Source of the DNA: Weissella diestrammenae
GTDB taxonomy: Bacteria > Bacillota > Bacilli > Lactobacillales > Lactobacillaceae
Direction: 5' to 3'
Assembly (NCBI RefSeq): GCF_014397255.1
Contig: NZ_CP060724.1
Location: 1,488,001-1,552,000 of the forward strand
DNA length: 64,000 bases
This document shows, in pieces, positions 10,241 through 62,602 of this stretch. The position numbers were made by a program, and so were the translations under genes. The notes under the pieces are model-generated. The model worked only from the letters and a program-made list of their open reading frames with translations. It did not search any database and was not told where the DNA came from. Positions within the stretch are counted from its first letter, which is position 1. Each line of letters starts with the position of its first letter.

Positions 10241-11122
10241 ATGAAAGGTATTATTTTAGCAGGCGGATCTGGAACGCGACTATATCCAATTACTAAAGCG
10301 ACGAGTAAACAATTGGTACCAATTTATGATAAGCCAATGATTTATTATCCTATGTCGGTTTTGATGTTGGCAGGAATACGTGATATTTTATTGATTTCTA
10401 CGCCTGAATTTATTTCGCAATTCGAGGATTTATTTGGAGATGGTCATAATTTGGGGTTAAACATTGAATATATGATTCAAGAACAACCTAATGGATTGGC
10501 CGAGGCATTCATTCTTGGTGAAACATTTATCGGTCAGGATTCTGTGGCGTTAGTTCTTGGAGATAATATTTTTTATGGTGCTGGGCTGTCTCAAATGTTG
10601 ATGGATGCATCTTCAAAATCCGACGGTGCGACTGTTTTCGGTTATCAAGTACATGATCCTGAACGTTTCGGAGTAATCGAGTTTAATGCGGAACAAAAAG
10701 CTGTCTCAATTGAAGAGAAGCCAAAGAAACCAAAAAGCAACTTTGCAGTAACTGGTTTGTATTTTTATGATAATGATGTTGTTGAGATTGCAAAAAAAGT
10801 GAAGCCTTCTGATAGGGGAGAACTTGAAATTTCAACAATAAATCAAGAGTATTTGGATCGAGGGAAACTCGATGTTAAATTAATGGGCCGAGGTTATGCA
10901 TGGCTGGATACTGGCACACATGATTCGCTACTTGAAGCATCAAATTTCATTGCAACTATTCAAAAACAACAAAATCTAAAGGTTGCTTCCCTAGAAGAAA
11001 TTGCCTATCGCATGAATTATATTTCTGCGGATCAGCTACTTGAATTAGCACAACCTTTAAAGAAAAATGATTATGGACAATATCTATTGCGGGTCGTTAA
11101 TGAAGAAATGATGGGTAAATAG
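10241..11122 (+). CDS. rfbA: Glucose-1-phosphate thymidylyltransferase (RmlA)
   Basis: Makes dTDP-glucose from dTTP and glucose 1-phosphate, the entry step of dTDP-deoxysugar synthesis. The 293 residues show the nucleotidyltransferase signature [27 protein letters not shown] (split here: GGSGTRLYP then [12 protein letters not shown]), GDNIFYG and VEEKP-like [11 protein letters not shown]. The ATG at 10241 follows CAGGGGTG. It opens the surface-sugar locus. No terminator is visible between fakA and this gene, so partial readthrough from fakA is possible. Confidence 0.96.
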
Positions 11123-11140
11123 GTAGCTTGGAGAACTAAG

Positions 11141-11563
11141 TTGAAATTAGAAGAATTAATGAAAAAATTTTTGCGGGATGAGCGGGTGCGCTTTTTAGCA
11201 GTTGGCGGATTCAATACAGTTTTTGGATTCGTCCTTTTTGCGTTATTTGAAAGACTGCTAAAAAATCTATCTGGTGGATATATGTATGCACTAGTTATCG
11301 CGCAAGTTATTTCACTTTTTGTTGCATATTGGATGCATCGTACTTTGACATTTAAAGTTAAGGGACATTTTTGGCGTGATCTTTTCCGATTTACTATGGT
11401 AAATGCAGTTGGTTATGGTATTAACTTAGTTGCTTTGCCTTTATTTGTAAATTTACTACACATGGAACCGTTAATTGCACAATTTATTATTTTACTTGTG
11501 ACAACGGTTATAAGTTATGTCGGACACAAAATGTTTTCGTTTAGGAGGAACCAGAATGGTTGA
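11141..11563 (+). CDS. GtrA-family membrane protein (lipid-linked sugar flippase candidate)
   Basis: A 140-residue protein with four predicted membrane helices, typical of GtrA. FLAVGGFNTVFGFVLFALFE, YALVIAQVISLFVAYWMHRTLTFK, an FRFTMVNAVGYGINLVALPLFV segment and FIILLVTTVISYVGHKMFSFRR are in the family order. GtrA proteins are thought to flip undecaprenyl-phosphate sugars across the membrane. The start is TTG at 11141, supported by TTGGAG seven bases upstream; an ATG at 11159 has no such site. The end overlaps the next gene by 8 bases. Confidence 0.88.
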   Translation: MKLEELMKKFLRDERVRFLAVGGFNTVFGFVLFALFERLLKNLSGGYMYALVIAQVISLFVAYWMHRTLTFKVKGHFWRDLFRFTMVNAVGYGINLVALPLFVNLLHMEPLIAQFIILLVTTVISYVGHKMFSFRRNQNG

Positions 11564-12377
11564 TGTATCGGTTGTCATTCCAGCGTACAAATCTAGTAAT
11601 TTTATAGAAGAGACAGTGCAATCGGTTTTGACTCAAAAGGGTGTTGATTTTGAGGTGATTGTCTCGTTACAAGGTCCAGAAGACGGATCACGTGAAATTT
11701 TAAATAACTTGCAACAAAAGTACGATGTTTTAAAAGTACTTGATGCACCTGAAGGGGCGGCTAAAGAAAACTTTACTTTTGTTTCCAATCAAGCAATGGG
11801 TAAATATATTAAATTATTACCTTCTGATGATGTTTTGTTACCTGGAATATTAAAACGACAATTTGACTTACTGGAATCGCACTCTGGTTCAGTAGTTACA
11901 GCCTCGCTACGAGAAATTATTGATGAAAACAATCAAGTGATTAAAAAATCATGGGGCTTAATGGGACTATCTCATCCTATGCCTGGTGCGGTTGTGATGC
12001 GGAAAGTTATCGCTTCGGGCATTAATGTTCTGGGTGAGCCTGGTGGCGTAACTATGTTGAAATCAGCTTTTGATCAAGCAGGGGGATGGGATTTCACTAG
12101 GCCATATACAATGGACCTAGAAACATATTTACATGTTTTAGCATTCGGTGATTTTGTTCCAGATCGTCAGGTTGGTGTCAAGTTTAGAATAAGCTCGGGT
12201 CAATGGACAGCTGCCTTGCAAGATGTTCAAGCTAAAAATGTGAAGGATATGAATGCTGATATGGCAAGAAGATGGCCTGAAATAGTTACTAAAAGTGTTG
12301 TGATTCGTGGGAACATTATGGCTGATTTAATGCAATTTGCACGAGGCATGGTGTTTAAATTGAGGAGAATTGAGTAA
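11556..12377 (+). CDS. Family 2 glycosyltransferase
   Basis: A GT-A fold transferase of 273 residues. The N-terminus VSVVIPAYKSSNFIEETVQSVLTQ and the acidic metal site LLPSDDVLLPG are typical of GT2. No membrane helices are evident. The ATG at 11556 has a perfect AGGAGG at 11543-11548; the longer frame starting inside gtrA is rejected. Its donor and acceptor cannot be read from sequence. Its place between the GtrA protein and the large membrane protein suggests that it builds the decorated surface glycan. Confidence 0.87.
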   Translation: MVDVSVVIPAYKSSNFIEETVQSVLTQKGVDFEVIVSLQGPEDGSREILNNLQQKYDVLKVLDAPEGAAKENFTFVSNQAMGKYIKLLPSDDVLLPGILKRQFDLLESHSGSVVTASLREIIDENNQVIKKSWGLMGLSHPMPGAVVMRKVIASGINVLGEPGGVTMLKSAFDQAGGWDFTRPYTMDLETYLHVLAFGDFVPDRQVGVKFRISSGQWTAALQDVQAKNVKDMNADMARRWPEIVTKSVVIRGNIMADLMQFARGMVFKLRRIE

Positions 12378-14593
12378 TGAATATGAGAAAAGAACGGCAA
12401 TCAGGTTGGATTTATAATTTGATTTTTATCGTCTCGGTCTTTTTAATAGCATTGATTCCTTTGATTTTTTTTAAAGATTTTTATTTCTTAGACGACAGTC
12501 AACGCGCAGCAGCGGGACAATGGTACGAGGTTGGTAGAGAAATTTCCAATGGTCATTTGCCAGTTTTAAATATAGCTGCACAAGGATCTGGTAACTATTT
12601 AGCTGAAGGTCAATGGGGGACGTTTAGCCCATTGCAATGGCTTATCGGGTTGGCGGTTTATCATTCAAATAATTTTGCATTTACGATTAGTTTTCTAAAG
12701 GTCATAACGTTAATTGTTTTTGCAATGGGGGTTCGACAACTTGCTACGTCATTTGGTGCAAAACGTGAATGGGCTTTTTTGGCTGGTATCACGGCGCCTT
12801 TTGTTGGGTTTACACTTTTTGCGGGTGGAGGATCGTGGGTAACCGATTTACTTGTGTCTGCTATGTTACCTTGGTTCTGGCTTGCATTACGACAGTTCTT
12901 AATTCGACGAAAATATATTGTAATGACGTTCATCGTGGGATACTCGATTATCACGATAGGCTATGTATTTGGCACATTAATGATGGTTGCTGTAATGTTT
13001 GGTATCATTATCCAATCATTAGTTTTAAAAGATTGGCAGACGTTAAGAAGAAATATATTAATCGGTATCCCACTTGGATTGATTGCAGTTGCAGTTTATT
13101 TACCAGGCATTTTGGTTTCGCATGTTACTATGCGTAGTGCTACGGATATTGTTAATGATAACTTTTTGTCACCTAATTTAGGAGAATTGGTGACCGCTTA
13201 TTCGCCTGTTCATTATCCAGAATTAAGCACATGGTGGGCTACTGGGAATGTTACTTATATGCCTTTGACTTATATAAGTTGGATTCTTCTTTTTGTGTCT
13301 TTTGTTAATTTAAGTCGATTATCTCAATTTATTAAGACACATAAGGCAGATTTATTACAATTAGGCTTTCCAACGATAATTAGTTTTATATTTTTGTTTG
13401 GACCAAGTGCCATTGGACCACTACGCTTTCCAATTAGACATTTTGCATATTTTGGACAGTTTACAATTATTATTGTGGCTGTCGTTATATCTCAAATGGG
13501 GATTGTCTTTTCACGTAGGCGAGTTGTTGCATTCTCTATATTTTCTTTATTAGGGGGATACCTTCAATATGCAAGCACACCGGAAAGAGTAAAAACCATT
13601 TTATTCACAAATATTGGTATCTTTATTGGTGTGTTATTGATGACGTGGATTATCGATGGGCATGCACAAAAAATCTCTCGATATGCAACTAGCGCTTTCA
13701 TAACTATAGCTATTTTGCTCACAGCTTCTGTGACTTTAATTCAGCAACGAGTAGTGGGACGAGCCGCTGATGTTAATTCAGAAAATTCTGTCGTAACCTA
13801 CCATTATCCTAAGTTTAATATGCCAACAACTAAGGAAAAGGTTGATGAGCAAGCTAAGTATTTCGTAGGAAACTCACTAGTTCTTGGTAATTCGCAAAAA
13901 ACAATTGTCGGAAACAATTGGTACATTGCTCAAAAACCATCTATTAATGTTTATTCCCCAGTAGGTTTTCAATCATTTGCTGAGGATGTTCGTAGTGGTG
14001 ACCCGACTTTTGTTCCGAATAGCACTTATAAAAAGTTGTTTTCATATGATAAGAAAACACATGAGAAAATAGTTGATTTGCTGTCAATTAGAACGGTTGG
14101 TATATCGAAATCAACAACTGATCATATTTATTCAGATATTGTTAATAAAAAAATAATTCCTGAGGGCTGGCATATTAATCATGTTGATGATGAATTAGTT
14201 GTTATTACGAGAAATCATTCAGTAGAAAAGGCGGGCTCAGTTGTTTGGACGAGTCAAAATCATGTCACCTATAAAGAACAAAATAATGGAAACTTTACTT
14301 TACGTGTGCCTGCTAGTAATAAGGCGACGCAAGTTGTGTTATCAAGAATGAATTGGCCTGGGTATGAAATTAGCAAAGGCCATGCAAATGTAGGAAGTGC
14401 ATTGCGGAAATATCTGTTAACTATAAATGTTAATGCATCTAATAAAGAGCAAACAATTGAGGTGAAATATCATGCACCTGGATTTAGTATTGCATGTATC
14501 CTAATTGCTGTATCATTTGGAATGATAATTTTATTAGCATTAGTTAAAAGTTTCTCCTGGAAATTAAATAAAAGATACTTAGTTGAGAAATGA
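12377..14593 (+). CDS. Polytopic membrane protein, probable GT-C glycosyltransferase (YfhO-like)
   Basis: A 738-residue protein with about a dozen hydrophobic helices in the first 450 residues, a long extracytoplasmic region (about 450-690) and one C-terminal helix (FSIACILIAVSFGMIILLALV). An acidic pair, FLDDSQRA, sits just after the first helix, where GT-C enzymes carry their catalytic Asp. The C-terminal beta-rich part (VVLSRMNWPGYEIS and KEQTIEVKYHAPG) resembles the YfhO family. I infer transfer of an undecaprenyl-phosphate sugar to a surface polymer. The start overlaps the GT2 stop by one base; GAGGAG lies upstream. Confidence 0.75.
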   Translation: MNMRKERQSGWIYNLIFIVSVFLIALIPLIFFKDFYFLDDSQRAAAGQWYEVGREISNGHLPVLNIAAQGSGNYLAEGQWGTFSPLQWLIGLAVYHSNNFAFTISFLKVITLIVFAMGVRQLATSFGAKREWAFLAGITAPFVGFTLFAGGGSWVTDLLVSAMLPWFWLALRQFLIRRKYIVMTFIVGYSIITIGYVFGTLMMVAVMFGIIIQSLVLKDWQTLRRNILIGIPLGLIAVAVYLPGILVSHVTMRSATDIVNDNFLSPNLGELVTAYSPVHYPELSTWWATGNVTYMPLTYISWILLFVSFVNLSRLSQFIKTHKADLLQLGFPTIISFIFLFGPSAIGPLRFPIRHFAYFGQFTIIIVAVVISQMGIVFSRRRVVAFSIFSLLGGYLQYASTPERVKTILFTNIGIFIGVLLMTWIIDGHAQKISRYATSAFITIAILLTASVTLIQQRVVGRAADVNSENSVVTYHYPKFNMPTTKEKVDEQAKYFVGNSLVLGNSQKTIVGNNWYIAQKPSINVYSPVGFQSFAEDVRSGDPTFVPNSTYKKLFSYDKKTHEKIVDLLSIRTVGISKSTTDHIYSDIVNKKIIPEGWHINHVDDELVVITRNHSVEKAGSVVWTSQNHVTYKEQNNGNFTLRVPASNKATQVVLSRMNWPGYEISKGHANVGSALRKYLLTINVNASNKEQTIEVKYHAPGFSIACILIAVSFGMIILLALVKSFSWKLNKRYLVEK

Positions 14594-14603
14594 GGAAGTG
14601 ATT

Positions 14604-16620
<2,017 letters not shown>

Positions 16621-16665
16621 TGGTTGGAATCCGGCATAGCTTCTGTTCAAAAAAGAGGTCTTAGA

Positions 16666-17496
16666 ATGAAAATTTTAGTTACCGGTGCGAATGGCTTCTT
16701 GGGTCGCGGCATTGTTTCTCAACTATTAAATTTAGGCAATGAGGTTGTTGCAACTGATCGCTCAACACAATTAGTGACAGATTTAGCACAGAGAGTCGAT
16801 GCAGATTTGTTTTCTGTCGACGATCCATACAATTTCTTTGGGCAACCAGATGCTGTATTACATCTGGCGTATCGTAATGGATTTGTGCTAAATGCGGAAA
16901 CACATTTAGAGGACTTGGCCTTGCATGCTAACTTCATCAAGTTACTTGTTGAAGGTGGTATTAAAAAGGTTGCCATTATGGGTACAATGCATGAAATTGG
17001 GTTTCATGAAGGAAGCGTTGATGAAACAACACCAACCAATCCAATGAATTTTTATGGAATTGCAAAAAATGCATTACGTGACTATACAAAAATTGTGACG
17101 AACCAAGCTGGCGTTCAAATGCAGTGGTTACGGGCGTATTATATTGTTGAAAACACAGCGTATGGTAATTCGATCTTTTCCAAATTATATCAGGCTGATG
17201 AAAATGGTGATTCTGAATTTCCATTTACATCAGGCAAAACACAGTATGATTTCTTAGACTATGCTGATTTTGCTAATTATGTTGCACATGTGGTTAGTCA
17301 AAATGATATTGATGGCATTATTAATATTTCCTCAGGAGAACCAGTTTCTTTGTCAAGTCGAGTCGAACGTTTTATTAAAGAAAATAATCTGACAATTAAA
17401 TTGGCTTATGGTAAGTTTCCAGATCGTCCTTTTGATCCAAAGGCAATTTGGGGAAATAATCAAAAACTTAACATGATTATGAATGAGGAAAATTGA
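16666..17496 (+). CDS. NAD-dependent epimerase/dehydratase family SDR, probable 4-ketoreductase
   Basis: A 276-residue extended SDR. It shows the Rossmann motif ILVTGANGFLGRGI and the catalytic Tyr-Lys pair in NFYGIAKNALRDY. An active-site Ser is not obvious; the equivalent segment reads IMGTMHEIG. It sits between rfbB and rfbC where rfbD would be expected, but it does not look like a canonical RmlD. By position it could reduce the 4-keto group of a dTDP-4-keto-deoxyhexose, as EryBIV or the deoxytalose reductase Tll do. The ATG at 16666 follows AGAGG at 16654-16658. The exact product is unknown. Confidence 0.8.
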   Translation: MKILVTGANGFLGRGIVSQLLNLGNEVVATDRSTQLVTDLAQRVDADLFSVDDPYNFFGQPDAVLHLAYRNGFVLNAETHLEDLALHANFIKLLVEGGIKKVAIMGTMHEIGFHEGSVDETTPTNPMNFYGIAKNALRDYTKIVTNQAGVQMQWLRAYYIVENTAYGNSIFSKLYQADENGDSEFPFTSGKTQYDFLDYADFANYVAHVVSQNDIDGIINISSGEPVSLSSRVERFIKENNLTIKLAYGKFPDRPFDPKAIWGNNQKLNMIMNEEN

Positions 17497-17498
17497 AT

Positions 17499-18074
17499 AT
17501 GACAAAATATAATGTAATAGATACAAAACTTCAGGATGTTAAAATACTGGAACAGCCATATTTTGGTGATAGTCGTGGTTTTCTAACTGAAGATTATTCG
17601 GTTAAAGATTTATTATCTGCAGGAATTGATATCAATGTTGTATTGGAATTTCATTCGTACACTGCCAATGCTGGTACTCTACGTGGATTGCATATTCAGG
17701 ATGGTATACATTCTCAGGCTAAGCTGGTCCGTGTTATTACCGGCGTTGTTTACGATGTATTAGTAGATGTTCGAAAAGGGTCACCAACATTTGGACATTG
17801 GCAAAGTTTTATTCTTTCTGAGAGTAATGGCCGTCAATTATATGTACCTCGGGGATTTGCTCATGGTTGGTTGGCATTGTCTGATAATGTTAACTTTACT
17901 TATAAGGTTGATAATTACTATGCGCCTGAATCTGAAACACCAATTGCATTTGATGACCCAATGTTTAACATCGAATGGCCAATTGCACCAGAGAAAATGA
18001 TTCTTTCGGATAAAGACCGTCACAATCCAAACTATGTAGATGCCGGTATTACGGCAATTTATGGTGAAATTTAA
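17499..18074 (+). CDS. rfbC: dTDP-4-keto-6-deoxyhexose 3,5-(or 5-)epimerase, RmlC family
   Basis: A 191-residue cupin of the RmlC family. The catalytic base H65 is in TLRGLHIQ and the catalytic Tyr135 is in NFTYKVDNYYAPESE, with the usual 70-residue separation. FVPRGFAHG-like YVPRGFAHGW is also present. The family inverts C5 alone or C3 and C5, turning D-sugars into L-sugars. The ATG at 17499 has GAGGAA upstream and lies 2 bases after the SDR stop. Whether it acts on the 6-deoxy or the 2,6-dideoxy intermediate (as EryBVII does) cannot be read from sequence. Confidence 0.9.
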   Translation: MTKYNVIDTKLQDVKILEQPYFGDSRGFLTEDYSVKDLLSAGIDINVVLEFHSYTANAGTLRGLHIQDGIHSQAKLVRVITGVVYDVLVDVRKGSPTFGHWQSFILSESNGRQLYVPRGFAHGWLALSDNVNFTYKVDNYYAPESETPIAFDDPMFNIEWPIAPEKMILSDKDRHNPNYVDAGITAIYGEI

Positions 18075-18080
18075 AGGTAA

Positions 18081-18107
18081 AAGGATGGAACATTAAGCTC
18101 CATCCTT
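18081..18107 (+). terminator. Stem-loop after rfbC (weak terminator or attenuator)
   Basis: AAGGATGGA (18081-18089) pairs perfectly with TCCATCCTT (18099-18107). The following sequence, ATTTTGAAG, is only weakly T-rich. It may partly terminate transcription before the 2,3-dehydratase gene, whose start lies 24 bases downstream. Confidence 0.55.
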
Positions 18108-18130
18108 ATTTTGAAGATATGGAGACTTTG

Positions 18131-19525
18131 ATGACAGAAAAATTAACACAAGACATTCTAAGGTCTTGGCAATGTGAAGAAGGCAATGTTAATTCGTATC
18201 AAGATATTCTTAATTGGATTACAGACCGGAATAAAAAAACAACTGTTGAGGTAAATCCAATTACTTTGGATCAATCGAATAGTTGGTATCATGATCAAAA
18301 GAACGGCTATATTACGAATGTTAATCATGGTTTTTTTCAAATTTCTGGTATTCAACTATTTGAAGATCAAGAATTAGTAAAAGAGCAACCAATCATCTTA
18401 CAAACTGAAATTGGCTTTTTGGGAATGATTATTAAAAAAGTTGATGGGGTTCTTAATTTTTTGATGCAAGCTAAAATTGAGCCTGGTAATATTAATGCTG
18501 TGCAATTGTCGCCAACTATTCAAGCAACAAAAAGCAATTTCACTGCAAAACATGGTGGGAAAAAGCCGGCATATCTGGATTATTTTTTAAATTCTGAGAA
18601 TTATCAAGTTCTTTATGATCAAATTCAGTCAGAACAAAGTGGACGTTTTTATAAGAAACGTAACCGAAATATGATTGTTTTTGTTGAAGATGAGATTGAA
18701 TTGTTACCAAATTTTAAATGGATGACATTAGGACAAATTAAAAAAATGTTAGACGAGCCTAATCTTATCAATATGGATACACGTACGGTTATTTCTGGCA
18801 TTCCTTTTCAAACGCGTCATTATTCTGATAAAGATTTGGAACTTTTATCGGAAACATTTACAGATATAAGTATGTTCAACTCTATATTTATTAGTGAACC
18901 TAGTGATTATTTACCTCAGATTACAAAAAAAATAAATGATTATAAAATGTTTACAAACTGCTGGACCCGAATAGTGCCTATATCAGAGATGAAGTCTTGG
19001 CGACTTAATCAGAACGGGATAAAAAGTTATACTAGTGATAATTTCTCCGTGGGTTATTTTGAGGTTGCAATTGAAGGTCGTGAAATTACAAGTTGGACGC
19101 AACCTTTGATTGTTGCTGAAGGTATTGCAGAATTAGGACTTATTTTGCGAAATCATCACGGTACAAAAGAAATTTTGATTAAGTTAACGCCTGAAATTGG
19201 GACAATGGATGCTATTGAATTAGGACCGACAATTCAATGGGAATCACTTGAACGTGGTGAAGCGCACAACAATGTTGAAAAATTATATTTGGATAACCTA
19301 GAACATAACGATCGCATCTTGCGACACGTTATGCTTTCTGAAGAGGGCGGCCGTTTTTACCACGAACAAAACTTAAATGTAATTATGGAAATTGGAAATG
19401 ATGATTTGCAATCATTACCAGAAAACTATATTTGGGTTAGTTACAGTGCCTTGAACTATTTAATCCAAAGTAATAATGTATTAAATATACAATTACGTAA
19501 TTTACTTTCAATGTTAATGATTTAA
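18131..19525 (+). CDS. NDP-hexose 2,3-dehydratase (EryBVI/TylX3/EvaA family)
   Basis: Removes water across C2-C3 of dTDP-4-keto-6-deoxyglucose, the committed step to 2,6-dideoxysugars. At 464 residues it matches the family length. It shows the known internal duplication. Half one has LMQAKIEPGNINAVQLSP, TIQATKSNF, HGGKKPAYLDYF and SEQSGRFYKKRNRN. Half two has VGYFEVAIEGREITSWTQPL, LTPEIGTMDAIELGPTIQW and SEEGGRFYHEQNLN. GGAG at 18121-18124 supports the ATG at 18131 rather than the ATG at 18119. I recognise the family from these motifs; substrate and product are inferred. Such genes are best known from actinomycete antibiotic clusters. Confidence 0.9.
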   Translation: MTEKLTQDILRSWQCEEGNVNSYQDILNWITDRNKKTTVEVNPITLDQSNSWYHDQKNGYITNVNHGFFQISGIQLFEDQELVKEQPIILQTEIGFLGMIIKKVDGVLNFLMQAKIEPGNINAVQLSPTIQATKSNFTAKHGGKKPAYLDYFLNSENYQVLYDQIQSEQSGRFYKKRNRNMIVFVEDEIELLPNFKWMTLGQIKKMLDEPNLINMDTRTVISGIPFQTRHYSDKDLELLSETFTDISMFNSIFISEPSDYLPQITKKINDYKMFTNCWTRIVPISEMKSWRLNQNGIKSYTSDNFSVGYFEVAIEGREITSWTQPLIVAEGIAELGLILRNHHGTKEILIKLTPEIGTMDAIELGPTIQWESLERGEAHNNVEKLYLDNLEHNDRILRHVMLSEEGGRFYHEQNLNVIMEIGNDDLQSLPENYIWVSYSALNYLIQSNNVLNIQLRNLLSMLMI

Positions 19526-19539
19526 GAAGGGATGAAGTT

Positions 19540-20469
19540 ATGGAGTATATGACATTGGGTTGTTCTGAATTGAATGTTTCCAAAGTTGGGTTAGGTGCGA
19601 TGCGCATGGGAAATCGTAACGCTAGTGAAAACTTGGAAACTGTCAATTTTGCGTTAGATCAAGGTATTAATTTTTTTGATTCTGCTGATGTATATGGTAA
19701 AGGACAGTCTTCCATAAATTTGGGCCAGGCGTTAAAAGCAAGTGGAATTAGTAGGAATCAAGTAATTATCCAATCAAAAGGTGGTATCGTAAGAACACCA
19801 AGTGGTAATCGAGTGGACTTTTCAACACGTCAGATAATTAATTCAGTGGAAGAAGAATTAAGACGGTTACAAGTAGAATACTTGGATGTATTTTTGCTCC
19901 ATAGACCCGATGCATTAGTTGAACCATTTGAGGTGGCTGAAGCATTTAATATCCTAGTTGAGCAAGGTAAAGTTCGTTATTTTGGGGTATCAAATCAAAA
20001 TTCTGGACAAATTGATTTACTTAAAACAGCTATTAGTCAACCATTGGTAACAAATCAACTGCAATTTGGTTTGATGCATTCAGGCATTGTCGATGAAGGT
20101 ATGCGAGTTAATATGACAGGAGACATGGCGGCAAGTCATGATGGTGGCATCTTAAACTATAGTCGGATTCACAAAATGACAATTCAAACGTGGTCTCCAT
20201 TACAGATTGGCTATTTTGGTGGCGTGTTCATCGATAATCCTGAATATGTAACTTTAAACAAAAAACTTGAAGAGATTGCGGACAGGCACAACACGAATAA
20301 AAGCGCCGTGGCTATCGCTTGGACTTTACGTCATCCGAGTCAAATGCAAGTTATTTCTGGATCAATGAGTAATACGCACATTCAAGAGATGTCTGAAGGC
20401 AGTGAAATTAAATTATCGCGACAAGAGTGGTATGATTTATATCAATCGGCTGGCAATCAAGTGTTATGA
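19540..20469 (+). CDS. Aldo-keto reductase, YdhF-like; probable deoxysugar ketoreductase
   Basis: A 309-residue TIM-barrel oxidoreductase with the AKR tetrad D47 and Y52 (FFDSADVYG), K80 (IQSKGG) and H121 (LLHRPD). The closest family I recognise is E. coli YdhF. It starts 14 bases after the 2,3-dehydratase stop with its own AAGGGATG site, so the two are cotranscribed. AKR enzymes such as EryBII/TylC1 reduce the unstable 3,4-diketo product of 2,3-dehydratases, so a 3-ketoreductase role is the natural inference. A general-purpose reductase is the alternative. Confidence 0.82.
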   Translation: MEYMTLGCSELNVSKVGLGAMRMGNRNASENLETVNFALDQGINFFDSADVYGKGQSSINLGQALKASGISRNQVIIQSKGGIVRTPSGNRVDFSTRQIINSVEEELRRLQVEYLDVFLLHRPDALVEPFEVAEAFNILVEQGKVRYFGVSNQNSGQIDLLKTAISQPLVTNQLQFGLMHSGIVDEGMRVNMTGDMAASHDGGILNYSRIHKMTIQTWSPLQIGYFGGVFIDNPEYVTLNKKLEEIADRHNTNKSAVAIAWTLRHPSQMQVISGSMSNTHIQEMSEGSEIKLSRQEWYDLYQSAGNQVL

Positions 20470-20698
20470 GTTTGATGCCTGTGACAGTAAAATGAGCATT
20501 CCGAGTTTTAGCTGTATGCTTACATGGATGTGTGCTGTTACACGAATAATTCATCCAGTATAATCAAAAAGGAAAAAACATGGTTCTAAATGCTTTTAGA
20601 TGGGTATTTTAGGGCTTTTTTTGTTGCAAAACTAAATTAAAATGTGTTATATTTTTAACGAATTTATAGTTATTATTATTTATGAATATGGAGTAAAA
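20470..20698 (+). promoter_or_regulatory. Intergenic region with promoter for the downstream wall genes
   Basis: A TTGCAA (20624-20629) and TATATT (20648-20653) pair with an 18-base spacer gives a good promoter before the gene at 20699. A TATAAT at 20559-20564 without a good -35 is a weaker candidate. A small TCTAAA/TTTAGA hairpin near 20585-20600, followed later by seven Ts, may be the terminator of the deoxysugar operon, but the stem does not abut the T-run. No gene is seen. Confidence 0.5.
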
Positions 20699-21148
20699 AT
20701 GAAAGCATCAAAAAAAATTTTGTGCAAACTAATTTTGATTATTGTCGCAGTCGGTGGGGCGTATAAGATTGGCACAATTCGTGATAATAGGCAAGACCAA
20801 GCTAGCAGTTCACACCAGGTTGAATTAAATTCAAGTAAAAAGGCTAAGTCGAATGTCACTAGCAAAGATACCGACAAGAATTTGCCAGATAAATCATCAT
20901 CGTCGTTTCTTTCTGGTGGTGAAGCTAGTGAAGCCTCATCAGAACTAGAAACTTTAATGAAATCAACATCAGGTATTAGCATCACAAAAGAAAATGTTCA
21001 GGAAGCTAGAAATCAAATTCGTGCACAAGGAATTAACGATGGTGATTTTTCAGACCTTGATATAGCTAAAGTAATTGATAAGGCTAATCAATCCAGTTTG
21101 GATTATAAGTCGGCCATTAAGTCAATATATCCTCATTATTTTGATTGA
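20699..21148 (+). CDS. Ser/Lys-rich membrane-anchored extracellular protein of unknown function
   Basis: A 149-residue protein I do not recognise. A positively charged start (MKASKKILCK) is followed by one hydrophobic helix (LILIIVAVGGAYKIG). A low-complexity linker rich in Ser, Lys, Asp and Ala (about 35-90) and a folded-looking C-terminal segment (about 90-149, ITKENVQEARNQIRAQGI) follow. It therefore probably projects outside the cell. GGAG at 20690-20693 supports the ATG at 20699 over an upstream frame start. It precedes the amidase by 41 bases and may be cotranscribed with it. Confidence 0.75.
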   Translation: MKASKKILCKLILIIVAVGGAYKIGTIRDNRQDQASSSHQVELNSSKKAKSNVTSKDTDKNLPDKSSSSFLSGGEASEASSELETLMKSTSGISITKENVQEARNQIRAQGINDGDFSDLDIAKVIDKANQSSLDYKSAIKSIYPHYFD

Positions 21149-21189
21149 GGAGTCTAGTTATTGTTAAGTGTAAGTAGGAGATTAGTATT

Positions 21190-22881
21190 ATGAAACTATG
21201 GCAGTATGTCATACTTTTTACAGGTTGTATCGTCGGCTTTGAAACGACACAACAAGAAAACGTTAGCGCGAACAGTGTTAATGATTATATCTATTCGAAG
21301 AATTTTCAGGCGAAAAATAGTTCCAATTATATTCAACAATGGTTGAACAATCCGAATTGGGAAGGTGTTGATATGAATTATCGACATGGCAGTCCAGAAG
21401 GTGTTTTGGTTCATGAAACAGCAAATAGCAGTGATAAAAATAACCCTAACGCAATTTGGAATGAAATTAATTATATGTTAGGTCATGCTGAATCGGCATT
21501 TGTTCATTCATTTGTAGATGATTCAAGTGCGATTGAAATTGCGAATCCATCATTTAAGTCATGGGGAGCAGGTGCAGAAGGAAATAGACGTTTTATTCAA
21601 ACTGAGCAAGTTCAGGTTGAAGGAAAAGAGGCTTTTGCTCAAGAATTATTCAATTTGGCTGTTCTTCAGTCCCGATACTTAGCGACTTATAATTTGAGAC
21701 CTAGTCTCGGAAATACAGTGTGGAGCCATGCGATGGTTTCACAACAGCTTGGCGGTACAAATCATACAGATCCAGATGGATATTGGGCGGACATGGCAGC
21801 TAGGTTCTATGGTACAACGTATACAATGAATGATTATGAGTCCTTATTGGAGAACGTATATAATAAAATTACCCCGCATGTGACTTATGCTAGACCGGTT
21901 GATTATGTGGCGACAATTTCTGTTGAGAATTCAAGTGGCGCTGGGATTGATAAAAATCAGCCCTATCTCATTCCAGGTTCGGAACATTTTGGTTGGGCTA
22001 AAGATTATAATCATCAATTAGTTCATATTACGCAGGAAATGACAACGTCAAATACTGAAGTTGTGTGGGTGTCGTTTAAGTTGAATGGCATAACCGTATA
22101 TATGCAAAAAGATTTGGTTAAACCAGGGGCTTTCATTTTAGAAACCAAACCAGTGAATTATACGGCTCATATTGACGGCATTAATAGCGGCTCTGGTATC
22201 GATGAATTCCAACCTTATCAAGTTGCAGGCTCACAACACTTTGGCTATGCGCGTGACTATGCGGGTCAAGAAATCAAGGTTGTCAATGAGATAAAAACGT
22301 CACATCAAAATGTGACGTGGGTTGAATTTGAATTGAATGGTCACCGTGTCTATATGGATAAGGCAAGTATTAGTCAAAACGATTATATCGTGTCATATAA
22401 ACCAGTGAATTATACAACCAAAATAATTGGTGATAATGCTACTGCTGGAATTGATACAGTTAAGCCTTGGCGAATTGATGGGTCACAACGTTTTGGGTAC
22501 GTTGGACAGTATAAAAATCAAGAGATTACAGTGACCGCTGAAATTAGAACGGCATATAATGACGTCACGTGGGTTGAATTCAAGTTGAATGGGCAGACAG
22601 TGTATACAGACATAGCCAATTTGAAACGCTATGCAACGATTACACAGTCAGTTGATGTCAATTATACGGCTACGATTCAAGCTAAAAATAGTAATCAAGG
22701 TATTGACACCGTACAACCATATAATGTTGCAGGTTCACAACACTTTGGTTGGGCACGTGATTATGATGGGAAACTAATTACAGTTACAAAAGAAATTACG
22801 ACAACAGATAATGTTACTTGGGTACAATTTAATTTGAATGGTACAACTGTATTTATGGATAAAAGAGTTTTGATAGTTTAA
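21190..22881 (+). CDS. N-acetylmuramoyl-L-alanine amidase with four GW-like repeats (autolysin)
   Basis: Secreted wall hydrolase of 563 residues. A signal peptide-like N-terminus (MKLWQYVILFTGCIVGFE) precedes an amidase_2 domain (about 45-220): EGVLVHETAN supplies a zinc His, WSHAMVSQQLGG another, and HTDPDGYW the third region. From about residue 235 there are four repeats of about 80 residues of the GW wall-binding type, each ending in a variant of WVEFKLNGQTVYMDK. Repeats 2-4 are almost identical in DNA to two blocks in the next gene. The ATG at 21190 follows TAGGAG. It probably cleaves the peptide stem from MurNAc. Confidence 0.9.
   Translation: MKLWQYVILFTGCIVGFETTQQENVSANSVNDYIYSKNFQAKNSSNYIQQWLNNPNWEGVDMNYRHGSPEGVLVHETANSSDKNNPNAIWNEINYMLGHAESAFVHSFVDDSSAIEIANPSFKSWGAGAEGNRRFIQTEQVQVEGKEAFAQELFNLAVLQSRYLATYNLRPSLGNTVWSHAMVSQQLGGTNHTDPDGYWADMAARFYGTTYTMNDYESLLENVYNKITPHVTYARPVDYVATISVENSSGAGIDKNQPYLIPGSEHFGWAKDYNHQLVHITQEMTTSNTEVVWVSFKLNGITVYMQKDLVKPGAFILETKPVNYTAHIDGINSGSGIDEFQPYQVAGSQHFGYARDYAGQEIKVVNEIKTSHQNVTWVEFELNGHRVYMDKASISQNDYIVSYKPVNYTTKIIGDNATAGIDTVKPWRIDGSQRFGYVGQYKNQEITVTAEIRTAYNDVTWVEFKLNGQTVYTDIANLKRYATITQSVDVNYTATIQAKNSNQGIDTVQPYNVAGSQHFGWARDYDGKLITVTKEITTTDNVTWVQFNLNGTTVFMDKRVLIV
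22081..22864 (+). repeat. GW-module repeat block, copy 1 (in the amidase gene)
   Basis: A 784-bp stretch encoding GW repeats 2-4 and their left linker. It matches copy 3 (24540-25323) at all but three bases by my reading, with no gaps. Its inner 22136-22841 part appears identical to copy 2 (23842-24547). Confidence 0.93.
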
Positions 22882-23015
22882 AACTATGTGACATTCAATA
22901 AGAAAGAGTAATGAACGGATTAGTTTAGTTCAATTCGATTCTGCATTTAATGTATAGTTAATTTTTAATGTGATAATGATAAGCTAGCTGTAGGAAATGA
23001 AAGAAAGGAGTTGTA
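22882..23015 (+). promoter_or_regulatory. Spacer between the two autolysin genes, possible promoter
   Basis: No hairpin terminator is visible. A TG-extended -10 (TGTGATAAT near 22968) could drive the glucosaminidase gene, but no good -35 is found. An AAAGGAG ribosome site precedes the ATG at 23016. Confidence 0.35.
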
Positions 23016-25613
23016 ATGAAAAGTAAACATAATATATCACCACTGAAATACTTGTTGATATTATTTCTCTTACCTGTGATACTTGGGTTATTTAAGCCAA
23101 CCGTTCAAGCCGATACGATTAGCAATTTTAAGAATTGGGTAGCACCAGGTGTTCGATCATCAGCGACAAGGTATAATACTTGGGGATCAGTCATGATGGC
23201 ACAAGCTGCGCTTGAATCTGGTTGGGGACAATCGGCTTTATCAACACAGGCAAATAACTTTTTTGGTATCAAAGGAACTTATAATGGGCAGTATGTGACT
23301 ATGCGGACTGCCGAGTATGATGCAAACGGAAATATTTATTACGTCAATGCACAGTTTCGAAAATACCCTTCACCTGAGCAATCAATGGATGACAATGGTA
23401 GTTTAATTAGAAATGGATTAAGTTGGAATCACGCTTATTACTCACAATCGTGGAAAGAAAATGCAAAAACTTATCAAGATGCTGCAAGAGCATTAGTAGG
23501 TAAGTATGCGACTGATCCGAATTATGGTAGTAAACTAATTGACTTAATTTCACAGAATGGTTTTGATAAATTAGTTGATGGTAATTATATTACGTATGCA
23601 CGTGATGTGAATTACGATGCAAAAATTATCGATAATAATAGTGGTGCAGGAATTGATAAAAATCAGCCCTATCTCATTCCAGGTTCGGAACATTTTGGTT
23701 GGGTACGTGATTATAAAGGTCAAATTATTCATATTAAACGTGAATTAACAACATCCAACACTAACGTCGTTTGGGTAGAATTCTCGTTAGATGGGCAAAT
23801 ATTGTACATGCAAAAAGATTATGCTATGCAAGGTATGTTCGTTTTAGAAACCAAACCAGTGAATTATACGGCTCATATTGACGGCATTAATAGCGGCTCT
23901 GGTATCGATGAATTCCAACCTTATCAAGTTGCAGGCTCACAACACTTTGGCTATGCGCGTGACTATGCGGGTCAAGAAATCAAGGTTGTCAATGAGATAA
24001 AAACGTCACATCAAAATGTGACGTGGGTTGAATTTGAATTGAATGGTCACCGTGTCTATATGGATAAGGCAAGTATTAGTCAAAACGATTATATCGTGTC
24101 ATATAAACCAGTGAATTATACAACCAAAATAATTGGTGATAATGCTACTGCTGGAATTGATACAGTTAAGCCTTGGCGAATTGATGGGTCACAACGTTTT
24201 GGGTACGTTGGACAGTATAAAAATCAAGAGATTACAGTGACCGCTGAAATTAGAACGGCATATAATGACGTCACGTGGGTTGAATTCAAGTTGAATGGGC
24301 AGACAGTGTATACAGACATAGCCAATTTGAAACGCTATGCAACGATTACACAGTCAGTTGATGTCAATTATACGGCTACGATTCAAGCTAAAAATAGTAA
24401 TCAAGGTATTGACACCGTACAACCATATAATGTTGCAGGTTCACAACACTTTGGTTGGGCACGTGATTATGATGGGAAACTAATTACAGTTACAAAAGAA
24501 ATTACGACAACAGATAATGTTACTTGGGTACAATTTAATTTGAATGGCATAACCGTATATATGCAAAAAGATTTGGTTAAACCAGGGGCTTTCATTTTAG
24601 AAACCAAACCAGTGAATTATACGGCTCATATTGACGGCATTAATAGCGGCTCTGGTATCGATGAATTCCAACCTTATCAAGTTGCAGGCTCACAACACTT
24701 TGGCTATGCGCGTGACTATGCGGGTCAAGAAATCAAGGTTGTCAATGAGATAAAAACGTCACATCAAAATGTGACGTGGGTTGAATTTGAATTGAATAGT
24801 CACCGTGTCTATATGGATAAGGCAAGTATTAGTCAAAACGATTATATCGTGTCATATAAACCAGTGAATTATACAACCAAAATAATTGGTGATAATGCTA
24901 CTGCTGGAATTGATACAGTTAAGCCTTGGCGAATTGATGGGTCACAACGTTTTGGGTACGTTGGACAGTATAAAAATCAAGAGATTACAGTGACCGCTGA
25001 AATTAGAACGGCATATAATGACGTCACGTGGGTTGAATTCAAGTTGAATGGGCAGACAGTGTATACAGACATAGCCAATTTGAAACGCTATGCAACGATT
25101 ACACAGTCAGTTGATGTCAATTATACGGCTACGATTCAAGCTAAAAATAGTAATCAAGGTATTGACACCGTACAACCATATAATGTTGCAGGTTCACAAC
25201 ACTTTGGTTGGGCACGTGATTATGATGGGAAGCTAATTACAGTTACAAAAGAAATTACGACAACAGATAATGTTACTTGGGTACAATTTAATTTGAATGG
25301 TACAACTGTGTTTATGGATAAAACGCTGTTGCTTCAACAACAAAATCAAGAAGTAACGGTTATTAATCGCAAGGTTGTTAACTACAATGCAACAATAATT
25401 GTAGATCAATCAAGCGGACAGGGAATTAATGCTAACCAACCTTATTTGGTACCTGGTTCAACTTTTTATGGCTGGGCAAATCAGTATTCTGGTCAAAAGA
25501 TACAAGTGATTGCAGAGTTGGTGACTTCGAATGCACCTGATATTGTTTGGATTGAATTTAAATTAAATAATACGATTGTATTTATTGACAAAAGTTGTGT
25601 TATTGTTGGCTAA
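23016..25613 (+). CDS. Endo-beta-N-acetylglucosaminidase (GH73) with eight GW-like repeats (autolysin)
   Basis: Secreted wall hydrolase of 865 residues. A signal peptide ends VQA-DT near residue 32. The GH73 domain (about 35-190) shows MMAQAALESGWGQSALS with the catalytic Glu, NNFFGIKGTYNG and YVNAQFRKYPS. Eight GW-type repeats follow: one divergent, two tandem triplets, one divergent. The two triplets are nearly identical DNA 753 bp apart, and the second resembles the amidase gene on its left flank. It should cut GlcNAc-MurNAc strands, with the repeats binding wall polymers. A strong terminator follows directly. Confidence 0.9.
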   Translation: MKSKHNISPLKYLLILFLLPVILGLFKPTVQADTISNFKNWVAPGVRSSATRYNTWGSVMMAQAALESGWGQSALSTQANNFFGIKGTYNGQYVTMRTAEYDANGNIYYVNAQFRKYPSPEQSMDDNGSLIRNGLSWNHAYYSQSWKENAKTYQDAARALVGKYATDPNYGSKLIDLISQNGFDKLVDGNYITYARDVNYDAKIIDNNSGAGIDKNQPYLIPGSEHFGWVRDYKGQIIHIKRELTTSNTNVVWVEFSLDGQILYMQKDYAMQGMFVLETKPVNYTAHIDGINSGSGIDEFQPYQVAGSQHFGYARDYAGQEIKVVNEIKTSHQNVTWVEFELNGHRVYMDKASISQNDYIVSYKPVNYTTKIIGDNATAGIDTVKPWRIDGSQRFGYVGQYKNQEITVTAEIRTAYNDVTWVEFKLNGQTVYTDIANLKRYATITQSVDVNYTATIQAKNSNQGIDTVQPYNVAGSQHFGWARDYDGKLITVTKEITTTDNVTWVQFNLNGITVYMQKDLVKPGAFILETKPVNYTAHIDGINSGSGIDEFQPYQVAGSQHFGYARDYAGQEIKVVNEIKTSHQNVTWVEFELNSHRVYMDKASISQNDYIVSYKPVNYTTKIIGDNATAGIDTVKPWRIDGSQRFGYVGQYKNQEITVTAEIRTAYNDVTWVEFKLNGQTVYTDIANLKRYATITQSVDVNYTATIQAKNSNQGIDTVQPYNVAGSQHFGWARDYDGKLITVTKEITTTDNVTWVQFNLNGTTVFMDKTLLLQQQNQEVTVINRKVVNYNATIIVDQSSGQGINANQPYLVPGSTFYGWANQYSGQKIQVIAELVTSNAPDIVWIEFKLNNTIVFIDKSCVIVG
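23842..24547 (+). repeat. GW-module repeat block, copy 2 (in the glucosaminidase gene)
   Basis: 706 bp that appear identical to 22136-22841 in the amidase gene. The left flank (encoding ILYMQKDYAMQGMF) differs from copies 1 and 3. Confidence 0.93.
24540..25323 (+). repeat. GW-module repeat block, copy 3 (tandem with copy 2)
   Basis: 784 bp aligned without gaps to copy 1. By eye there are three substitutions: one changes a Gly to Ser in ELNSHRVYMD and two are silent. The left flank is that of the amidase gene, not that of copy 2. Confidence 0.93.
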
Positions 25614-29301: not shown

Positions 29302-30876
29302 ATGAGATTTTTTAATAGGCACGTGGATTGGTTCGCCTTTTTGACAGAACACTATTTTGCTTTTGGACAACGTGGGCATAATCCGTACACGCGTTCGCTA
29401 CATTTGAATGAAGATGGACGAATTCATTTTGGGGTTAATGAAGATAGCCGCAATGAATATTATTGGCGGTTGAATGACCGTGAGTTATTATTCTTAAACG
29501 ATGAACAAGAAGTGACTACGAGTTATACATTACCTAATAGTTTACAGGAACCGATGATTGGGAATTTTATTTTAGATGATGTCATTGAACACGAGTTGCG
29601 GCCAGTCAGTTTGGTAACGGCAACAGATGAGTTAACAGCTAAACAAACAGCCTTTGTAAAATCACGTTTTTTTGAATTAAAACAATCAGTGACTGATGCT
29701 TCTAGACGCAGTATGAGTGTCACACATCATCGCTTGATTCGCGTTGGGTTCATTTTAAACGCGGTTGAAACCTTGGATGCGTCAATTCCATTAATTCGTG
29801 CTTTGCAAAATGATGAACGCTTTGAGGTGAAAGTTGTTACGTTGAATCGCATTTTTAGGGGACAAGAACAAGCTGAAACACGTCAATTATTAGAAACTAA
29901 GTTGACCCATTTAGAAATCCCTTTTGTGAGAACAGAGGGATCCAATTCATACGATGTTGCAGCCCGATTAAAAGACTGGGCACCTGAATTTATTTTTAGG
30001 CAATCAGAGTGGGATCAAGATTTCCCGAGTGAATTCTCAATTCGTCAATTATATTGGACACGCGTAGGACATATTTCGTATGTGATTACTGAAAATTTAG
30101 TAAAAACCCCAAATATCGATTTACCATTTTTCATGCTAGATTATTATGAAAAAATATGGCGATACTTTGTGGCAAATGAGCTAACAAATGAAAGTAAAAA
30201 ATTATTAGCACAAACATTTATTTCAGAAGATGTTTTCGCGCCAATTGGGTCAATCAAAGCAATTCAGATTAGAGACATTGCGCCTCATTGGCCAGTAGAA
30301 ACACAAGCTAAGAAGGTCATTTGGATGCCGCATCATTCGATTGGGAATGAGTGGTTTGCTTTTGGCACATTTGATATGAATTATGAAATGATTTATGAAT
30401 GGGCTAAGGCCCATCCAGAAATCTCGATTGTGTTAAATCCACATCCAAGTTTACCGGCAGTGATCGAAGCGGGAACGGGAGATATAACTTTCGAAGAATT
30501 CGAGGCTTTCTTGGAAAAGTGGGAAGCATTGCCAAATACGACTTACTTTATTCATCAGGAAAGTTATTCTGCTGTCGCAGCGGGTGATGTCATTTTGACA
30601 GATGGCATCTCAGTGCTTTATGAGGCACAAATTTTAAGGAAACCAATTGTTTACTTGGAGAATCAGGCGCATGTTGAATTGACAGAATTTGGAGAACAAC
30701 TGATTCGTGGCGTACATCGACAGCCTATTTTTGAAGAGGCTTTGAAACAAGTTATGACGTTGCTCGACACACCGGATCCGTTATTACCATACCAAGTTGA
30801 AAATACAGCACCGTGGTTAGCTAATGAACATCCAGAAAATGCAATTATTGACGCAATGATTGACGAATTACGTTAA
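29302..30876 (+). CDS. TagF-like (CDP-glycerol glycerophosphotransferase family) GT-B protein
   Basis: A 524-residue cytosolic protein without membrane helices. The C-terminal half resembles the teichoic-acid polymerase family: VIWMPHHSI, ISIVLNPHPSLPAV and GDVILTDGISVLYEAQILRKPIVY correspond to the H-H and D-x-S-S donor-site segments. The N-terminal 130 residues (FAFGQRGHNPYTRSLH, YYWRLNDRELLFLNDE) are unlike TagF. The canonical D-x-x-S-S is replaced by DGISVLY. A role in adding glycerol-phosphate or a sugar to a wall polymer is inference. It starts with ATG at 29302 after GGAAATGAA. Confidence 0.7.
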   Translation: MRFFNRHVDWFAFLTEHYFAFGQRGHNPYTRSLHLNEDGRIHFGVNEDSRNEYYWRLNDRELLFLNDEQEVTTSYTLPNSLQEPMIGNFILDDVIEHELRPVSLVTATDELTAKQTAFVKSRFFELKQSVTDASRRSMSVTHHRLIRVGFILNAVETLDASIPLIRALQNDERFEVKVVTLNRIFRGQEQAETRQLLETKLTHLEIPFVRTEGSNSYDVAARLKDWAPEFIFRQSEWDQDFPSEFSIRQLYWTRVGHISYVITENLVKTPNIDLPFFMLDYYEKIWRYFVANELTNESKKLLAQTFISEDVFAPIGSIKAIQIRDIAPHWPVETQAKKVIWMPHHSIGNEWFAFGTFDMNYEMIYEWAKAHPEISIVLNPHPSLPAVIEAGTGDITFEEFEAFLEKWEALPNTTYFIHQESYSAVAAGDVILTDGISVLYEAQILRKPIVYLENQAHVELTEFGEQLIRGVHRQPIFEEALKQVMTLLDTPDPLLPYQVENTAPWLANEHPENAIIDAMIDELR

Positions 30877-61486: not shown

Positions 61487-62416
61487 GTGAAATTATCAAT
61501 TATTATTCCAGTATTAAATGAGCAAGAATCAATCCCATTATTTTACTCAGCTGTGACTCAAATTCAAAGCGAACAACTATCCGATATTGAATTTGAATAT
61601 TGGTTCATTGATGATGGGTCTACAGATGACACAATTTTGGCAATTAAGTCATTACAGTCAACAGATAGTGACGTACATTATGTTTCATTTTCAAGAAATT
61701 TTGGTAAGGAAGCAGCACTATTCTGTGGACTTCAATACGCGACTGGAGACTATGTGGCAGTTATGGATGTTGATTTACAAGATCCACCTGCGTTGTTACC
61801 AGACATGTTGGCGGGTGTTATATCTGGAGAATGGGATGTTGTCGGGACTCGGCGAAAAACTAGAAATGGTGAGCCGAAGATTCGAGCTTGGTTTAGTGAA
61901 TTGTTTTATAAAATAGTTAATCATACATCAGATAATCATATAGTCGAGGGCGCAAGAGATTATCGTGTCATGACGCGCCAAGTTGTTAACGCTATTTTGT
62001 CAATGAATGAATACAATCGTTTTTCTAAGGGAATATTTACATGGGTTGGCTTCAAACAAAAGTACATTGCTTATGAAAATAAGGCACGTGTTGCTGGAAA
62101 GACTTCGTGGCAATTTTTGAATCTCTTTAAATACTCCATTGATGGTATCGTTGCATTTTCTCAAACCCCTTTGGTCATTGTTTCGATTTTGGGACTAGTT
62201 ACTTTTTTGTTATCAGTGATTGGTGCTATATTCGTCTTTATCAGGGCAATAGTGGTGCCTAATACATCAGCATTTGGTTGGCCATCCATGGTGGTTATCA
62301 TGCTTGGTCTTGGTGGCGTTCAATTATTAAGTTTGGGGATTGTGGGACAGTACATTTCAAAAATCTATCTAGAGGTGAAAAAACGACCGTTGTATCTTAT
62401 AAAAGACAGCGAATGA
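61487..62416 (+). CDS. GtrB-type family 2 glycosyltransferase, second copy
   Basis: A 309-residue paralogue of the enzyme at 14604. The GT2 domain shows LSIIIPVLNEQESIPLFY, the metal site MDVDLQDPPALLPDM and FSRNFGKEAALFCGLQYA. Two C-terminal helices follow (TPLVIVSILGLVTFLLSVIGAIFVFI and VVIMLGLGGVQLLSLGIVGQYI). It probably makes an undecaprenyl-phosphate sugar. It starts with GTG at 61487 behind an AGAGGCA site. It is a single-gene unit with no GtrA or GT-C partner adjacent, so its partner must be encoded elsewhere or shared with the 11-15 kb locus. Confidence 0.88.
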   Translation: MKLSIIIPVLNEQESIPLFYSAVTQIQSEQLSDIEFEYWFIDDGSTDDTILAIKSLQSTDSDVHYVSFSRNFGKEAALFCGLQYATGDYVAVMDVDLQDPPALLPDMLAGVISGEWDVVGTRRKTRNGEPKIRAWFSELFYKIVNHTSDNHIVEGARDYRVMTRQVVNAILSMNEYNRFSKGIFTWVGFKQKYIAYENKARVAGKTSWQFLNLFKYSIDGIVAFSQTPLVIVSILGLVTFLLSVIGAIFVFIRAIVVPNTSAFGWPSMVVIMLGLGGVQLLSLGIVGQYISKIYLEVKKRPLYLIKDSE

Positions 62417-62468
62417 TATATTTACCAGTAATTAAAATTAAGAAATGTACTGAATAATTATCTAAAGA

Positions 62469-62502
62469 CTTGAGCTAGACTAATTCTGGTTCAAGCTTTT
62501 TT
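62469..62502 (+). terminator. Terminator after the 61487 glycosyltransferase
   Basis: CTTGAGCTAGA (62469-62479) pairs with TCTGGTTCAAG (62485-62495), with two G-U pairs, followed by C and T6. Confidence 0.85.
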
Positions 62503-62520
62503 ACAGATTGTGAAGTTTGA

Positions 62521-62561
62521 AACACGTTATATATACGTATAAATACGATTCGTGTTATAAT
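62521..62561 (+). promoter_or_regulatory. Extended -10 promoter of the acetyltransferase gene with flanking repeat
   Basis: TGTTATAAT (TATAAT at 62556-62561) is a consensus extended -10. AACACG (62521-62526) and CGTGTT (62551-62556) form an inverted repeat around alternating TA/CG sequence that would cover the -35 area. Confidence 0.5.
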
Positions 62562-62602
62562 CATGCCATAATTATATGTATAAATCTCAAAAGGGAGAAT
62601 GA

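Follow-up and report, generated by a model that had tools for sequence, protein, structure and literature searches.

Gene content of the locus

The window (the whole stretch of 64,000 nucleotides from Weissella diestrammenae that was analysed) contains, between positions 10241 and 20469 of the + strand, ten consecutive open reading frames (ORFs), every one intact, which form a predicted operon for the synthesis and transfer of a deoxysugar. An earlier note on this DNA had reported RfbA, RfbB, an RfbC-type epimerase, a short-chain dehydrogenase/reductase (SDR), an NDP-hexose 2,3-dehydratase and an aldo/keto reductase (AKR) within this run. All six are intact and identified by profiles, but they are not consecutive: rfbA and rfbB are separated by genes for a GtrA-family protein, a family 2 glycosyltransferase (GT2a), a 738-aa membrane protein and a second, GtrB/PgfS-like GT2 (GT2b). 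The coordinates, with the likely real starts of rfbB and the SDR gene, are presented in Table 1; the dehydratase gene likely starts at 18119 or 18131. The rfbB gene is the only copy above the cut-off in the genome.

Table 1 Features of the deoxysugar cluster and the genes that follow it (TM, transmembrane; GT, glycosyltransferase)
Feature	Position	Strand	Evidence
rfbA/rmlA, glucose-1-phosphate thymidylyltransferase	10241..11122	+	TIGR01207 489 bits, cut-off 361
GtrA-family putative flippase, undecaprenyl-P-sugar	11141..11563	+	PF04138 E 1e-24; three hydrophobic segments
GT2a, soluble, TuaG-like	11517..12377	+	PF00535 E 4e-18
738-aa polytopic membrane protein, presumed GT-C-type glycosyltransferase (YfhO-like)	12377..14593	+	inferred
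GT2b, GtrB/PgfS-like undecaprenyl-phosphate sugar transferase	14583..15554	+	PHROG 841 GtrB-like E 3e-89
rfbB/rmlB, dTDP-glucose 4,6-dehydratase	15580..16620 (ATG 15580 chosen)	+	TIGR01181 439 bits, cut-off 365
Extended SDR, proposed 4-ketoreductase in place of RmlD	16666..17496 (ATG 16666 chosen)	+	PF01370
rfbC-type dTDP-4-keto-6-deoxyhexose epimerase	17493..18074	+	TIGR01221 194 bits, cut-off 156
Terminator-like hairpin, ATTTT tail, rfbC/dehydratase gap	18081..18107	+	fold -12.9 kcal/mol, z -2.5
NDP-hexose 2,3-dehydratase (EvaA/TylX3 family)	18119..19525	+	PF03559 E 1e-125
Aldo/keto reductase, proposed 3-ketoreductase	19540..20469	+	PF00248 E 2e-53
168-aa protein, one N-terminal TM segment	20642..21148	+	no Pfam/NCBIfam match of note
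Amidase-like autolysin, GW repeats	21190..22881	+	four GW domains; resembles Listeria Ami
Glucosaminidase, 8 GW repeats, before pgm	23016..25613	+	PF01832, PF13457

The 2,3-dehydratase and its candidate reductase partner

There is no reasonable doubt that the dehydratase belongs to family PF03559, and C2 deoxygenation is predicted from this membership. It scores 417 bits (cut-off 25) in two stretches that cover both repeats, and the proposal of the earlier note thus withstands the objection of a missing relationship to this family. The sole relative in the PDB is EvaA (4j7g, E 3.5e-74). Residues E121 and E172 align to E139 and E190 of EvaA (pocket A) and are invariant across 54 aligned sequences; in EvaA, both glutamates are essential, and activity is lost on mutation (PMC8987622). 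The window enzyme shares with EvaA and TylX3 the two-repeat organization and both essential glutamates, whereas it differs from these antibiotic-pathway proteins in that it belongs to a lactic acid bacterium, has a surface-glycan context and falls within a Bacillota clade. Since the characterised PF03559 enzymes reviewed in the same source act in antibiotic pathways, the sugar could be imagined on a small molecule that is secreted, by analogy with the antibiotics of actinobacteria. We consider this very improbable, as the transferases are of the GtrB and GT2 types and are accompanied by a flippase. No polyketide synthase, nonribosomal peptide synthetase or GT1-type transferase was found in the window, and antibiotic glycosylation was rejected because the window holds no aglycone pathway.

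Counting the organism's own genome each time, PF03559 was found above the cut-off in 1 of 301 genomes of the same family, 1 of 395 of the same order and 4 of 398 of the same phylum. A protein search of 28 congeners revealed no other PF03559 gene in the genus; matches in G403 and G831 were discarded as lying under the cut-off. With a single-sequence query, no close relatives were detected in genome contigs, while an alignment query retrieved 270, the best 80 of which are mostly from Clostridia. In the tree, the dehydratase falls inside a Bacillota clade (100/100), beside a mainly lachnospiraceal group (99/96), on a long branch, with identities of 43-54% within the clade and ~35% to the actinobacterial enzymes. 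Most simply, these data are read as transfer of the gene from a source of the clostridial type. Searches against plasmids, viruses and phage families provided no indication that the cluster is carried by a phage or plasmid; the two viral-contig hits were 38% identical.

An important question is which enzyme would reduce the keto group at C3. Of the 80 loci, mostly clostridial, 75 encode a Gfo/Idh/MocA reductase no more than 3 kb away from the dehydratase, and some of these also have an epimerase and an SDR; several actinobacterial 2,3-dehydratases likewise have MocA-type genes beside them. A partner that reduces C3 is thus usual, and here only the AKR qualifies as a candidate. The clostridial clusters (for example, L017 and L105) resemble the window cluster as polysaccharide-type loci with a dehydratase and often an epimerase, an SDR and a GT2; they differ in that their C3-reductase candidate is of the MocA type, their SDR belongs to another family and the AKR is absent from all 80. 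In gut and rumen Clostridia (L058-L137; 270 relatives found), dehydratase-MocA pairs are widespread, so that 2,6-dideoxysugars may be common in clostridial surface glycans. At one locus (L015, Lachnospiraceae RUG12564), the dehydratase occurs with a MocA reductase, a DegT aminotransferase, two ketoacyl synthase III-like proteins, several SDRs and an acyl-adenylating enzyme; with its genes named by eye, this locus has the appearance of a cluster for an acyl-sugar or a small molecule.

The catalytic tetrad of the AKR (D47, Y52, K80, H121) is intact by sequence reading. The protein is 50-55% identical to the AKRs of most congeners, a paralogue in the same genome included, and ~50% identical to those of Enterococcus and Listeria, compared with 25-33% for two AKRs encoded near actinobacterial 2,3-dehydratases, the upper value coming from a partial alignment. 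These values do not favor the kinship with TylC1/EryBII put forward previously, although the TylC1 and EryBII sequences themselves were not part of the comparison. In the tree, the AKR does not group with the copies of the genus itself; support for this is modest (84/77), and its branch is long. Judged by its sequence, it is a recruited reductase from a general Bacilli AKR family, and its position in the operon together with the intact tetrad suggests that it acts as the 3-ketoreductase. In several congeners (L184, L185, L186, also L141, L143-L145), rfbB (~70%) is directly followed by an AKR gene whose product is ~51% identical to the window AKR, and neither rmlA nor rmlC nor rmlD was recognised in the neighbourhood; in other congeners, the AKR gene adjoins galE.

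The SDR, the missing RmlD and the sister species

The SDR, a PF01370 protein with the motifs GANGFLG, Thr and YGIAK, reaches 19-24 bits against the RmlD profile TIGR01214, far from the cut-off of 224. No RmlD above this cut-off was found in the entire genome; among the congeners, 6 of 28 have one. Relatives of the SDR, 54-59% identical (~50% in Bacteroidota), are located in rfb clusters: beside rfbD in Lactiplantibacillus plantarum, in clusters of Bacteroides and Alistipes with no rfbD annotated in the stretch shown, and in four genomes of the same family with no rfbD recognised nearby. This context fits a role of the SDR as the 4-ketoreductase, standing in for RmlD. Because its relatives sit in rfbA/B/C clusters, often without rfbD (lactobacilli, Bacteroides, Alistipes), the SDR type is not confined to pathways for 2,6-dideoxysugars, and the homologue label given in the earlier note is not supported for it.

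In the sister species (G311, FakA 85% identical), cluster L052 consists of rmlA-rmlC-rmlB-rmlD followed by genes for GtrA, a GT2, a GtrB-like GT2 and the 738-aa protein. Identities to the window proteins are 81% for RfbA, 85-88% for RfbB, 69% for GT2b, 64% for GT2a, 58% for GtrA, 55% for RfbC and 44% for the membrane protein. Both species thus hold RfbA, RfbB, RfbC, GtrA, two GT2s and the 738-aa protein in one cluster, but G311 has RmlD and the window has the SDR, dehydratase and AKR, and the gene order and chromosomal site differ. Given this match, the lack of RmlD here and its presence in some congeners, the window cluster resembles an operon for rhamnose-type decoration whose RmlD was exchanged for the SDR, the 2,3-dehydratase and the AKR. 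In G311 and in G055, FakA adjoins pgm and the site is empty, while 15.5 kb lie between these genes in the window; this segment is therefore an insertion relative to both genomes. The 168-aa protein with one TM segment and the two GW-repeat autolysins (20642-25613) share the insertion and are absent there in G311 and G055.

By gene-context resemblance, the SDR is possibly of the 6-deoxy-L-talose type. In Pseudolactococcus walls, 6-deoxy-L-talose replaces rhamnose via an oxidoreductase added to rmlABCD (PMC12599335), and Bifidobacterium exopolysaccharide contains the same sugar, with an extra oxidoreductase in the rml cluster (PMC5033381). The window cluster is comparable with that of the P. laudensis 6-deoxy-L-talan (PMC12599335) in its combination of rml genes with an NAD-dependent oxidoreductase, by which a lactic acid bacterium would divert its rhamnose supply to a less common sugar; P. 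laudensis, however, keeps RmlD and has no C2 deoxygenation. An SDR of this kind would lead to L-oliose or L-boivinose, and one of another kind to L-olivose or L-digitoxose. The first pair is thus as likely as the second, which the earlier note had preferred, and the configuration at C3 and C4 cannot be read from the sequence.

It is also conceivable that two sugars are made, with RfbA, RfbB, RfbC and the SDR supplying dTDP-6-deoxy-L-talose or a similar 6-deoxy-L-hexose, the dehydratase and AKR supplying a second, 2-deoxy donor, and each GT2 using a different one. This would agree with the presence of SDR relatives in rfb clusters that lack a dehydratase, with the 6-deoxy-L-talose of Pseudolactococcus and Bifidobacterium and with the hairpin separating rfbC from the dehydratase gene. 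The second sugar would also need a 4-ketoreductase, however, for which the cluster encodes one candidate only, and the presence of two GT2s need not imply as many sugars, given that the sister species has both with rhamnose genes only. We regard this alternative as unlikely, although it deserves some weight.

The RfbC-type enzyme retains H67, K77, Y137, Y143 and D175, and its gene overlaps the SDR gene by 4 bp. It is 51-55% identical to congeneric and non-congeneric RmlC proteins alike, compared with 61-66% between the sister species and two congeners. Such values might reflect drift, as expected if the product were a D-series 2,6-dideoxyhexose, the SDR or AKR reducing before C5 epimerisation and RfbC being a remnant of the rhamnose pathway. 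The complete set of catalytic residues, the overlap with the SDR gene and the frequent presence of an epimerase in clostridial clusters with a 2,3-dehydratase make this improbable; we consider the L-configuration likely. Unusual divergence of RfbC as a signal was weakened by a control, in which RmlC pairs from the sister species and congeners shared 33-66%.

The hairpin between rfbC and the dehydratase gene was called on the - strand, with its ATTTT tail read on the + strand. We conjecture that it is an attenuator or an old operon end to which the dehydratase and AKR genes were appended later. Its location, the long branch and the solitary occurrence of the dehydratase would all fit a scenario in which the two enzymes are passengers, either recent, not expressed or not functional, and a plain 6-deoxyhexose is the wall sugar. 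We give this explanation little credence, since the ORFs are full-length, the catalytic residues are invariant and the dehydratase and AKR genes are spaced by 14 bp.

Elsewhere in the window, a 524-aa protein (29302-30876) has a weak, sub-threshold Epimerase_2 match and is followed by Mur ligase-like genes; close to the window end, another GT2 and a hexapeptide-repeat acyltransferase are encoded (61487-63217).

Predicted pathway and surface destination

Another question is where the sugar would be used. The GtrA-family protein matches PF04138, and GT2b is recognised as a GtrB/CsbB-type polyprenyl-phosphate transferase by PHROG 841 and two C-terminal TM segments, with 239.7 bits against the PgfS model NF047588, below its cut-off of 500. 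The 738-aa protein has at least ten hydrophobic segments, with a large soluble part before the last one; it has no Pfam match, a weak hhalign match to YfhO (P 30%, E 5e-4) and an AlphaFold (AF2) model, computed for the protein alone, with a pLDDT of 44. In combination, these proteins match the pattern of the multi-component transmembrane glycosylation systems CsbB/GtcA/YfhO and Csd/CflA (PMC8035078), which suggests use at the surface. A GtrB-type transferase, a GtrA flippase and a polytopic transferase, the last one presumed in the window, are common to all; judging from excerpts of that source, however, those systems carry Glc, Gal, GlcNAc or an unknown sugar, whereas the window operon has 2,6-dideoxysugar donor genes, an arrangement that is new to us. 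The surface-glycan context recognised in the earlier note thus stands, although the note had overlooked the GtrA/GtrB/membrane-protein system as the sugar's likely destination. The acceptor may be lipoteichoic acid, wall teichoic acid, a polysaccharide or a protein. GW domains bind teichoic-type polymers, and the GW-repeat autolysins of the island may therefore be relevant.

On paper, the gene set is sufficient for a dTDP-2,6-dideoxyhexose, with six profile-identified families, no RmlD above the cut-off and, as noted before, no C-methyltransferase or aminotransferase; we consider the pathway probable. RfbA would form dTDP-glucose and RfbB dTDP-4-keto-6-deoxyglucose, steps for which the family-level identification is strong. 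The PF03559 enzyme, for which homology and catalytic residues speak strongly, would remove the C2 hydroxyl to give a 3,4-diketo-2,6-dideoxy intermediate. The AKR may then reduce the 3-keto group, the RfbC-type enzyme invert C5 and the SDR reduce the 4-keto group in RmlD's stead. By analogy with three-component systems, GT2b would load the sugar on undecaprenyl phosphate, GtrA would flip it and the GT-C-like 738-aa protein would hand it on to a polymer of the wall or to a surface protein.

We put at about 0.65 the probability that, as predicted from its genes, the operon yields a dTDP-2,6-dideoxy-L-hexose and serves to attach this sugar to a surface polymer. Several points weigh against this reading. 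The pairing of AKR and dehydratase is known from this genome alone, as none of the 80 mostly clostridial loci shows it; with the hairpin after rfbC, the dehydratase and AKR genes may have an expression of their own; RfbC might instead use its ordinary substrate and act on it at C3 and C5; and the GT-C assignment of the 738-aa protein is weak. For the fuller proposal, in which a neutral 2,6-dideoxy-L-hexose reaches the wall or a surface protein via an undecaprenyl-phosphate system after RmlD was swapped for the SDR, a clostridial-type dehydratase and a recruited AKR, we see even odds.

The 2,6-dideoxysugars are acid-labile, strong acid destroying them, and have been encountered mostly in antibiotics; on the surface of a lactic acid bacterium, they could escape notice when walls are hydrolysed with acid in the usual way. 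A review from 2025 on the glycans of gut bacteria that are not pathogenic, including Lactobacillaceae, lists 24 residues, with 6-deoxytalose among them (PMC12413058); in the excerpts of this review, no neutral 2,6-dideoxyhexose appears, which, within openly licensed literature only, is no proof of absence. If the proposal is true, the 3-ketoreductase of the cluster would be an AKR different from those of actinobacteria, the wall sugar would be one unseen before in lactic acid bacteria, and a likely phage receptor and immune epitope would be changed in such a bacterium. The operon would also be a small, tractable system in which to study the switch of a decoration from rhamnose to a different sugar, and the sister species offers a natural rhamnose control.

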